DNA of 64,000 nt from Candidatus Zixiibacteriota bacterium (GTDB lineage Bacteria; Zixibacteria; MSB-5A5; DSPP01), in contig JAKEHY010000038.1 in the NCBI GenBank assembly GCA_022614805.1, positions 1 to 64,000 of the forward strand, read 5' to 3'. The notes below the pieces were generated by a model that saw nothing but the letters and a program-made list of their open reading frames with translations, did not search any database and was not told where the DNA came from. Positions 18,246-55,439 of the stretch are shown here, in pieces (within the stretch, counting starts at the first letter, position 1; each line of letters opens with the position of its first letter). The translations under genes were made by a program, and so were the position numbers.

Positions 18246-19423
18246 AACGGGGGTGGTCGATGGCCGTCGCGCTGACACTGCTGTTTTGTGCCCCTCTGCG
18301 GGCGCAAGAGAGCGATTTCGATTCAGCGCGGGCGCCAATGGATGCCGCCGATGCGTCGGAGGACTTGAAGAAAATCCGCCAGGAACTGGATGCCGAACGA
18401 AAGAAGCTGGCGGAGGTGGAGCGGCAGGAGAAGTCGGTTTCCCGTCAGCTCGAGAACCTGGGGGCCAACATCGCCTTGACCGAAAAATACCTGAAGCGGC
18501 TGGCCCGAAAGAAGCGGGAGGTCGAGAAAAGGCACGAGCTGACCGCGGCCACCCTCGATATGTCGGAAGTGGTCTACGAAAAGAAAAAGGAACGGCTGGG
18601 GGTACGGCTGAAGTACTTTTACGTCGCCAACCAGAAGGCGAAATCGGAAATTTTGCTGGCGGCCGCCCTTCCGCAGGTGATGCTGGAGCGGTTTTTCGAC
18701 TTCCGGAGAATTCTTTCACAGGAGAAAAAAGAGTTGGCGCTGGTCCAGAATCAGAAGGAGTATCTGGCGGCGCAGAAGGAAAAATTGGAAAAGCAGGCGG
18801 CCACCCTGCGGGCCATCGAACGGGAGAGAAAAAAAGAGGAGAGCCGTCTTCTGGCCGCGAAGGAGCGGCGGCAGGAGCTTTTGTCCGGGCTGCGAGTTCA
18901 GAAGCAGGGGCATCTGGCCTCCATCGAGCGCTTGAAACAGTCGGCGGCGGAGCTGGCACGGATTATCGCCGAGCTGGAAAAGAAGCGGAAAACCCGCCCC
19001 ACCACCATACCGGCGGGGGGGAATTTTGCCGATTTTAGAGGGGAGCTCTCCTGGCCCGTTTCGGGCCGGGTGATTTCCCGTTTCGGCACCCATAAAGACC
19101 CGGTAACCAAGGTGAATTCATTTCAACCAGGGGTGGATATCGATGCTTCCGCCGGGGAGCAGGTGCGGGCGGTGGCGGCCGGCTCGGTGGCCTATTCCGG
19201 TTTTCTGCGCGGCTACGGGAAGTTTTTGATTCTGTCCCACGGCGGCGGGTATTATACTCTCTATGCCCGGCTGGAAGACGTTTTCGTCGATACCGGCAGT
19301 CCCGTGGGGGCCGGAGACGTTTTGGGCACCGTTTCGGCGGAAGCCTCCGCTTTGGGAAGCGGGTTTCATTTCGAGGTGCGCAAGGGGAAAACCCAGGAAG
19401 ACCCGGAAGGGTGGCTGCGATAA
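18242..19423 (+). CDS. EnvC-like murein hydrolase activator (coiled coil plus inactive LytM/M23 domain)
   Basis: This 393-aa protein has a signal peptide (AVALTLLFCAPLRAQ), a long coiled coil (about 40-250) and a C-terminal LytM fold (about 270-393). The zinc ligands are degraded: the HxxxD His is Gln295 (D299 kept), the HxH motif has Gly374 in place of its first His (H376 kept), and YxHL is YARL with Arg343. This parallels E. coli EnvC, a non-enzymatic LytM factor that activates amidases when driven by FtsEX. The gene order ftsE-ftsX-envC supports this. It overlaps ftsX by 4 bp. Confidence 0.85.
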   Translation: MKRGWSMAVALTLLFCAPLRAQESDFDSARAPMDAADASEDLKKIRQELDAERKKLAEVERQEKSVSRQLENLGANIALTEKYLKRLARKKREVEKRHELTAATLDMSEVVYEKKKERLGVRLKYFYVANQKAKSEILLAAALPQVMLERFFDFRRILSQEKKELALVQNQKEYLAAQKEKLEKQAATLRAIERERKKEESRLLAAKERRQELLSGLRVQKQGHLASIERLKQSAAELARIIAELEKKRKTRPTTIPAGGNFADFRGELSWPVSGRVISRFGTHKDPVTKVNSFQPGVDIDASAGEQVRAVAAGSVAYSGFLRGYGKFLILSHGGGYYTLYARLEDVFVDTGSPVGAGDVLGTVSAEASALGSGFHFEVRKGKTQEDPEGWLR

Positions 19424-20562
19424 CATTTTTTGCTGACGTTTTAGGCCAGGAAGCGGTAAAGGCCGGTCTCGAACGGGCCTTGGAGGCCGGGCGGCTGCCG
19501 CACGGGGTTTTGTTTTACGGCCCCAAAGGGACCGGCAAATTTGCCGCCGCCCACTCGCTGGCCAAGGTTATTTTATGCGAAAAGAAAAGCGGCTGCGGGG
19601 ATTGCGCCGGCTGCAAGAAGACGGCGGCAATGTCTCATCCCGACCTTTTAATCACCATCCCTCTACCTTCGGCGGGGTCTCCCCCGGAAAAGAAGAAAGA
19701 GGAGGCACGTCAGGCGGTTTACACCGATTTTCTGGAGAAAAAAAGGAAAAATCCGTACAATCCGGTCTGGAAGGAGAACGCCGATTTTATCACGGTTTCC
19801 GACCTGCAGAATTTGCAGGAACGGCTTTCACGGAAGCCGATGGAAGCGGACTGGCGGGTGGCCATTCTTGTAGAAGCCGACCGGCTGCAGCTGCCGCAGG
19901 GAGCCAACAAGCTTTTGAAAACCTTGGAAGAGCCGCATAAAAATACTTTGATTATCCTTATCGCCGAGCGGCCTAAAAATCTTTTGCCGACCATCCTTTC
20001 CCGAACGCAGAAGTTTTTCTTTCCGCCATTGTCCAGTGAGCGGGCGGCCGGTTTTGCCGCAAAGGAGTTCGGGCTTTCGAAAAAAGCGGCCGGGGAGTTG
20101 GCGGCGATGGCATCGGGCAGTATAGCCAAGCTCTATTTTTTGCAGAAAGAGGAGGAACTGGAACGGCGCCAACAGGCCTGGGAGGTCTTGAAACTGACTT
20201 TATCGGGGCAGGAAGCGCCCCTGTTTTTGGCGCTCAAGATGGCCGCCGATACCCGCAAAAAAGAGGAGGTGCTCTCCTTTTTAAGCTGGCTGGAGGTTTT
20301 TTTGTGGGAGTTTTTCTGCCTGTCCGAACTGAAACAGCCGGAACGGGTGGCCAGCGCGGATTTGAGGCCGGAATTTGAAAAAGCCGCATTGGCCTCAAAA
20401 ACCTCCTTCCCTTATCTTGCCGCCCTGCACGAGGTCGGCAAGACCCGCGTGGATTTGGAGCGGAACGTCAATTTCCGACTGGCGCTGTTCTGGCTTTTTG
20501 CGCGGATTTTGCGGGCGAAACCCAGCCAACTTCTAAAGCCGCCAATTACGCAGGTTAGATAA
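19411..20562 (+). CDS. holB: DNA polymerase III subunit delta' (clamp loader)
   Basis: This 383-aa protein has the delta' layout: a P-loop region GPKGTGKF (37-44, last residue Phe rather than Thr/Ser), four zinc-binding cysteines (C56, C62, C65, C68), LQLPQGANKLLKTLEEP, and ILSRTQKFFF at the sensor/SRC position. Delta' usually does not hydrolyse ATP, which agrees with the altered P-loop. The GTG start overlaps the EnvC-like gene by 13 bp. The last codons (ITQVR) lie inside a dispersed hairpin repeat, so the C-terminus was probably altered by repeat insertion. Confidence 0.88.
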   Translation: MAAITFFADVLGQEAVKAGLERALEAGRLPHGVLFYGPKGTGKFAAAHSLAKVILCEKKSGCGDCAGCKKTAAMSHPDLLITIPLPSAGSPPEKKKEEARQAVYTDFLEKKRKNPYNPVWKENADFITVSDLQNLQERLSRKPMEADWRVAILVEADRLQLPQGANKLLKTLEEPHKNTLIILIAERPKNLLPTILSRTQKFFFPPLSSERAAGFAAKEFGLSKKAAGELAAMASGSIAKLYFLQKEEELERRQQAWEVLKLTLSGQEAPLFLALKMAADTRKKEEVLSFLSWLEVFLWEFFCLSELKQPERVASADLRPEFEKAALASKTSFPYLAALHEVGKTRVDLERNVNFRLALFWLFARILRAKPSQLLKPPITQVR

Positions 20563-20575
20563 AACTTAACCTGCG
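20549..20575. repeat. CGCAGGTT hairpin repeat, copy 1
   Basis: CGCAGGTTA (20549-20557) pairs with TAACCTGCG (20567-20575) over the loop GATAAAACT. The loop is identical to the copy at 55397, and the top base pair differs in a compensatory way (A-T here, G-C there). The left arm lies inside the last codons of holB. Confidence 0.85.
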
Positions 20576-20619
20576 CCACCGGCTTTCGGTAATAAGCGTT
20601 TATTTGGGTCTTCTACTTT

Positions 20620-45843: not shown

Positions 45844-46512
45844 GTGACTATCAATCCCTTTACAAAGGGCACTAATTTTGAAAAAATTTTTACAACTCTA
45901 TCGGATTTAAGATGGCATTGCGGAAAACATGAACTGCCCGGTACTCAGCCAGCCAAAGCCATCCAAGTTATTCGGCAACATGGATTTGACATAGAAAAAA
46001 AGACAATTTACTGCCCTGTCTGCAAAGACAAAACCGTTCATAGACGATTGGTTTCGACCGTTCCAATAGCAACACCTTATACCCGCACGCAACTTCCGGT
46101 TAAATTACGAGAGCGGATATTGGAATATTACAAAAATACCGAGGCAATCACTTTGCGGGAAATGGTGCCTAACCAATTGGAGGTAGATCATCGTTTTCCG
46201 CAAGTTCGCTGGTCGAAAGTTGAAAAGTTTGATCCTGATATGCCGGACGAAGAGCTTCACAAAATGTTTCAACTTTTGACTCGCCAGCATAACTTATGGA
46301 AAAGTCGCTATTGTGAAAATTGCAAAAAGACGGGAGAAAGAGGTACCTTTATTGGCATAAATTATTTCTATGAAGGTAATGAGAAGTGGGACCCAAACAT
46401 TCCCGAGGATGACGAAAAAGGATGTATTGGATGCTTTTGGTATCATCCTGAAAATTGGCGGAAAAGTTTAAATGAAAAAATTGAAAGAAAAAATTCGAGG
46501 GCGAGTAAATAG
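45844..46512 (+). CDS. HNH-type restriction endonuclease (partner of the methyltransferase)
   Basis: This 222-aa protein has three CxxC pairs (C57/C60, C157/C160, C194/C197) and an HNH-like core: EVDHR (114-118) and RQHNLWKSR (147-155). WHCGKHELPGTQPAKAI near the N-terminus is a conserved-looking block. HNH nucleases cut DNA using one metal ion. The GTG start lies 9 bp after the methyltransferase stop, as in restriction-modification pairs. The AT-rich composition matches the methyltransferase and not the flanking genes. Specificity is unknown. Confidence 0.75.
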   Translation: MTINPFTKGTNFEKIFTTLSDLRWHCGKHELPGTQPAKAIQVIRQHGFDIEKKTIYCPVCKDKTVHRRLVSTVPIATPYTRTQLPVKLRERILEYYKNTEAITLREMVPNQLEVDHRFPQVRWSKVEKFDPDMPDEELHKMFQLLTRQHNLWKSRYCENCKKTGERGTFIGINYFYEGNEKWDPNIPEDDEKGCIGCFWYHPENWRKSLNEKIERKNSRASK

Positions 46513-46538
46513 AATGGACATAAAGCGATAGTTTTGCG

Positions 46539-46566
46539 GCGCAGGTTGAAAAAACCCAACCTGCGC
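46539..46566 (+). repeat. CGCAGGTT hairpin repeat, copy 2
   Basis: GCGCAGGTTG (46539-46548) pairs perfectly with CAACCTGCGC (46557-46566), and TTTT follows at 46567. It lies between the restriction gene and alaS, so it may end restriction-gene transcription or form a structure in the alaS leader. The loop (A-rich, ending CC) differs from copies 1 and 3. Confidence 0.8.
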
Positions 46567-46656
46567 TTTTCATTGGAAGGGGATAGCTGGCTTAAGCCTT
46601 TAAAAGGTTTTATATTGGCAATGGACGCCGAAAAACTGTCCAAACTTGAGTTCTTT

Positions 46657-55312: not shown

Positions 55313-55327
55313 CGAAAACAGTCGTGG

Positions 55328-55365
55328 CGCAGGATAAAGTCCGCCAGAGGCGGGCGTATCCTGCG
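55328..55365. repeat. Nested hairpin repeat
   Basis: CGCAGGATA (55328-55336) pairs with TATCCTGCG (55357-55365) and encloses CCGCC/GGCGG (55341-55353). The inner part resembles the TCCGCC/GGCGGA hairpin at 3342, and the outer arm resembles the CGCAGGTT family. It lies just upstream of the methyltransferase start. Confidence 0.7.
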
Positions 55366-55396
55366 GGATTTATTATTACTGTGCATAATCCAGGAA

Positions 55397-55423
55397 CGCA
55401 GGTTGGATAAAACTCAACCTGCG
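55397..55423. repeat. CGCAGGTT hairpin repeat, copy 3
   Basis: CGCAGGTTG (55397-55405) pairs with CAACCTGCG (55415-55423) over GATAAAACT, the same loop as copy 1 at 20549. The G-C pair at the stem top replaces the A-T pair of copy 1. The 3' flank CCAC is also shared. Confidence 0.85.
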
Positions 55424-55439
55424 CCACAGTTCTTTCATT

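Follow-up and report, generated by a model that had tools for sequence, protein, structure and literature searches.

A small REPIN family in a Zixibacteria genome, probably mobilised by a RAYT acting in trans or by a lost relative of it

We analysed a 64,000-nt stretch of Candidatus Zixiibacteriota DNA (the window) together with its genome, and found that a hairpin recurring in it is very likely one of the two REPs, the right-hand one, in a small family of REPINs that is probably mobilised in trans by a RAYT of the genome or by a lost relative. The preliminary description of the window had suggested that the hairpin is under selection or is copied as a palindrome, and had named a RAYT-type protein as a possible mobiliser; this is supported by about 14 dispersed copies, by covariation and by the RAYT genes of the genome. 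The copies display what characterises REPs and REPINs: a GTGG foot, two REPs in inverted orientation with GTGG outside and within about 100 bp of each other (10 complete copies), dispersed extragenic copies, and presence/absence variation relative to a congener (G001).

Within the window, the pattern CGCAGGTTN{3,25}AACCTGCG matched three times (20549-20575, 46540-46565 and 55397-55423), against 0.00 matches expected from dinucleotide shuffles of the window, none of which (0 of 100) reached three. The search and the shuffles thus bear out the earlier claim that three copies share the arms CGCAGGTT/AACCTGCG. Two of the positions given for them, 20549 and 55397, were correct, whereas the copy placed at 46539 truly starts one base later, at 46540. 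As described, copies 1 and 3 have an identical 9-nt loop (GATAAAACT) and the same 3′ flank (CGCCAC), and their top stem pair is A-T in copy 1 (20549) and G-C in copy 3 (55397), with pairing kept. In copy 2 (46540) the loop is a different one, AAAAAACC, enclosed by a 10-bp stem of GCGCAGGTTG, and the CCAC flank is missing. No Rfam family matched in a gathering-score search of the window. The features of the window that concern the family are:

19411..20562, plus strand: holB-like ORF (similar to DNA polymerase III delta-prime), with the name taken from its own sequence
20549..20575, minus strand: REP singlet consisting of hairpin B (CGCAGGTTA GATAAAACT TAACCTGCG), with the minus-strand reading GTGG-CGCAGGTTAAGTTTTATCTAACCTGCG
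20576..20579, minus strand: GTGG foot of this singlet (CCAC on the plus strand), from the sequence
46540..46565, plus strand: B-like hairpin, probably degenerate, with GCGG replacing GTGG (46536-46539) and a T-rich tail (20.9 bits, E 0.2)
55324..55327, plus strand: left GTGG foot of the complete element
55328..55365, plus strand: hairpin A of the complete element, with a 9-bp lower stem (CGCAGGATA/TATCCTGCG), an AA/G bulge, an upper stem and a small loop
55366..55396, no strand assigned: spacer of the complete element, 31 nt, little conserved among copies
55397..55423, plus strand: hairpin B of the complete element
55424..55427, minus strand: right foot of the complete element, reading CCAC on the plus strand and GTGG on the minus

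The one complete REPIN of the window thus spans 55324-55427. The singlet at 20549, whose DNA fold has a z of -5.2, overlaps the holB-like gene and supplies its final codons and its stop: TQVR and the stop fall within the left arm of the singlet or at its border, whereas the orthologue in G001 has the C-terminus RILRAKGRG*. The hairpin at 46540 sits between an ORF at 45844-46512 and an alaS-like ORF starting near 46624, and is probably a degenerate copy of the family. It scores as a terminator-like site, but shuffles give 1.3 such sites as expected. Elsewhere in the window, positions 1-700 contain five direct repeats of about 95 nt with a spacing of 144-165 nt, which are 69-77% identical to the first repeat and lie inside a long ORF (31-1299).

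Searching the whole genome (2.56 Mb in 38 contigs, 93% complete), we found 13 occurrences of the arms with a 10-11 nt interior and two matches of other shape, compared with 0 matches for a reversed control pattern (15 versus 0). A looser genome search showed that most B hairpins are adjoined by a second hairpin, A (CGCAGGATAAAG...CGTATCCTGCG). The complete unit, as aligned in one orientation (n = 10), measures 82-106 bp and reads GTGG, hairpin A, spacer, hairpin B, CCAC. In hairpin A, a lower stem of 9 bp is followed by an AA/G bulge and by an upper stem that varies between copies. Hairpin B, which mostly forms the right half of this larger element, consists of a 9-bp stem closed by a 9-nt loop. 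The outer GTGG...CCAC ends are nearly invariant, and almost every copy has GTGG or CCAC as its outer end. The spacer varies from 5 to 31 nt, with a mean pairwise score of 0.51, just a little above that of shuffled spacers (0.47; 0 of 100 shuffles as high), and the two halves score 0.78 and 0.87; conservation is thus confined to the ends. When folded as a single strand, the element pairs GTGG with CCAC around both hairpins (z -5.6).

A covariance model built from the ten copies recovered all of them at E 1.6e-14 or better, and further matched C26:10821, where the B stem is deleted, the B singlets C12:115033 and C1:20549, and, weakly, the 46540 hairpin. Based on pattern and covariance-model searches of the genome, the family has 10 complete members and 4 more that are halves or relics, about 14 in total, in agreement with the expectation of dispersed copies. 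They are spread over 8 contigs, and all complete ones lie between the main ORFs. Most lack the T run that would mark an intrinsic terminator.

The compensatory change noted in the stem proved to be part of a wider pattern: paired changes exceeded those of every one of the 500 shuffles in three of the five measures, and covariation was far above that of slid controls. Among the ten copies, 93.3% of the cells were paired (88.4% in shuffles), the covariation score was 0.174 (0.097 in shuffles), and 15 cells were changed on both sides (6.1 in shuffles), a type of count that kinship among the copies inflates; none of the 500 shuffles reached any of these values. The other two measures were unexceptional, with 6 pairs showing changes on both sides (as many in 35 of 500 shuffles) and 13 further pair types (143 of 500). 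Of these 6 pairs, five belong to hairpin A and the sixth, the A-T/G-C top pair, to hairpin B, where the rest of the stem is fixed by our choosing the B copies by their arms. The element at C1:196583 and its G001 orthologue both have hairpin A, with upper stems ACCGC/GCGGT and CCCCG/CGGGG, respectively; from sequence comparison, this orthologous pair argues independently for kept pairing. The paired base changes are real, but they are usual for REP/REPIN elements and need no new principle. In cutting single-stranded REPs, RAYTs rely on the foot and on the folded stem (PMC8266576), which is sufficient reason for pairing to be kept.

We next turn to the relatives, starting with G001, which is about 80% identical and in which orthologous regions were located by a joined query of the neighbouring genes. 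The element was absent from at least seven orthologous sites (L041, L042, L046, L047, L050, L051 and L052), one of which (L047) corresponds to the complete copy of the window. The cleanest empty site was that of L042 (compared with L098), where the intergenic region is 112 nt long versus 15 nt in G001; generally, the joins at empty sites are inexact, the intergenic DNA having diverged. The G001 site of L045 also lacks the element and is occupied by other DNA. For L043, L044 and L053, the G001 sites were rearranged or too diverged for comparison, which covered neither the 46540 site nor L049 (contig end, no match). No target-site duplication was recognisable at the copies. At L051, around 1495-1600, the copy is flanked by two similar terminator-like stretches, of which G001 has one; they may be a target duplication or an older structure. 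A covariance-model search of 57 relatives yielded one half copy, a hairpin A alone in G001. Exact searches for the A half gave no match in 131 other genomes of the phylum, nor in ∼85 000 named genomes, a collection that possibly does not include the genome itself. This absence from nearly all relatives searched suggests that the family is young or confined to one lineage, and its presence/absence at orthologous sites speaks for dispersal by copying rather than through host selection.

The proposed search for a RAYT-type protein was successful in part: there are four Y1 transposase genes in the genome, each of which passes the NCBIfam cut-off for REP-associated tyrosine transposases, and none is flanked by exactly this family (no copy within about 1.5 kb of any of them). 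Instead, each is flanked by its own distinct REPINs, made of GTAG- or GTGG-footed hairpins:

G000:C25:8746 (L031): RAYT gene, foot GTAG
G000:C4:10858 (L032): RAYT gene, foot GTAG
G000:C26:12897 (L033): RAYT gene, foot GTGG
G000:C27:6169 (L034): RAYT gene, foot GTAG

A REPtron, that is, a cognate RAYT flanked by the same REP, was thus not found in the 93%-complete genome. This excludes a complete REPtron and not REP membership, because REP families without a known RAYT have been published and part of the genome is missing from the assembly. Nor did we find a relative carrying a cis RAYT for the family among the named genomes, the 131 genomes of the phylum and the 57 relatives.

With our model, the two REPINs beside the C26 RAYT matched at E 2e-4 and E 4e-4, and a further copy located elsewhere at E 1e-4, whereas those beside the other three RAYTs gave no match (E 0.24 or worse). 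The C26-type REPINs, found at about 5 sites, agree with the family in their GTGG foot, in having CGCA at the base of the arm, in the hairpin B loop AAAAC and in the order of the halves; they differ in the middle of the stem (ACATT/AATGT versus AGGTT/AACCT in the family) and in hairpin A, which has another stem and is without the long upper stem. Two of the 14 family copies lie on C26, the 40-kb contig of this related RAYT (chance about 0.02, post hoc). In named genomes, relatives of the C26 RAYT reached no more than about 23-36% identity across long matches, and those for which feet were found had mostly GTAG hairpins of other sequence. At the orthologous place in G001 (C11:27535-27599), the RAYT and both flanking REPINs are missing; at least four REPs of the C26 kind lie elsewhere in G001. 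In a genome of the same order, another RAYT (L069, G002:C1:1359713) is flanked by a two-hairpin unit built on the same plan, which has a GTAG foot and GCGCAGGCTAAAGCCTGC as its arm.

We propose that a HUH/Y1-type RAYT would recognise the GTGG foot and the folded single strand, cut there, and then copy or move the doublet as single-stranded DNA, probably at replication. Since no copy flanks a RAYT, the enzyme is assigned by resemblance, and the likeliest actor would be the GTGG-type RAYT on C26, working in trans, or else a close relative that has been lost. Singlets such as that at 20549 would be decayed halves, the stems would stay paired because recognition and propagation are limited to folded copies, and some copies may later serve the host as transcription terminators. 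That one RAYT drives two diverged REPIN subfamilies, its own in cis and a larger one in trans, is possible but rather doubtful.

Other origins of the family have to be weighed. The hairpins could be regulatory structures selected by the host, such as terminators or mRNA stabilisers, that are alike through shared function rather than copying. This is what the terminator-like score at 46540 would fit, as would hairpin A at C1:196583, which is followed by TTTTTC in both genomes and whose pairing survives several both-side changes. However, a host function leaves unexplained why identical arms and GTGG/CCAC feet stand beside unrelated genes, and why seven orthologous G001 sites do without the element. 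The T run is also missing at most copies, and no Rfam family matches in the window; we consider this reading improbable. Chance recurrence of a short palindrome, for which only the weak 46540 copy speaks, has practically no probability left given the window shuffles and the reversed control: the genome-wide count and the shared second hairpin refute it.

A variant of our main explanation is much harder to set aside, namely that the family is an orphan relic whose own RAYT is extinct and which is no longer mobilised in trans. The missing cis RAYT, the small copy number and the single-half copies would all fit, a published model predicts decay once the RAYT is lost (PMC3686654), and G001, without the C26 RAYT at the orthologous place, yet retains REPs of its kind. 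Against this, the ten copies are almost identical at their outer ends and in their lower stems, and the congener lacks most of them, which together imply fairly recent spread; the two copies on the contig of the related RAYT also speak against a relic. We regard the relic as quite conceivable, and mobilisation by a RAYT in trans or by a lost relative as the better description of the family.

Our data add an unrecorded REPIN family, apparently limited to one lineage, and a genome with four RAYT/REPIN sets and one family without a cis RAYT is a convenient natural case for studying whether REPINs can persist or spread through a transposase acting in trans. If one RAYT did serve two subfamilies, a REPIN subfamily could outgrow the one tied to its transposase. 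If the bulged hairpin A and the perfect hairpin B were both substrates, the enzyme would combine recognition styles of separate RAYT groups.

Among known systems, the REP/BIME elements of E. coli (y and z units; TnpA-REP) have an AA-GC bulge that the mid-stem AA mismatch bulge of hairpin A resembles (PMC8266576); in contrast to them, the family has the foot GTGG rather than GTAG, and its hairpin B is without a bulge. GTGG is a recorded variant foot (PMC3686654, PMC3733652). Heterodimers are on record in the GTAG superfamily, and its head-to-head heterodimers are like our elements in having the tetranucleotide foot outside and different loops (PMC3733652). Most dimers have spacers of 20-100 bp, and head-to-head ones usually have conserved spacers, as a rule of thumb (PMC3733652), whereas the 5-31 nt spacers of the family are unconserved and differ almost fully. 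The REPINs of Pseudomonas fluorescens SBW25 are inverted REP doublets that form hairpins (Bertels and Rainey 2011, PMC3116915). Unlike them, the family has two clearly different hairpins per unit, no cis RAYT, and 14 copies compared with the hundreds of SBW25 and classical REPINs (PMC3116915). It shares with the SBW25 REPINs the inverted REP pair, the conserved ends with a weakly conserved spacer, frequent compensatory changes, the extragenic location, and singlets as remnants (PMC3116915).
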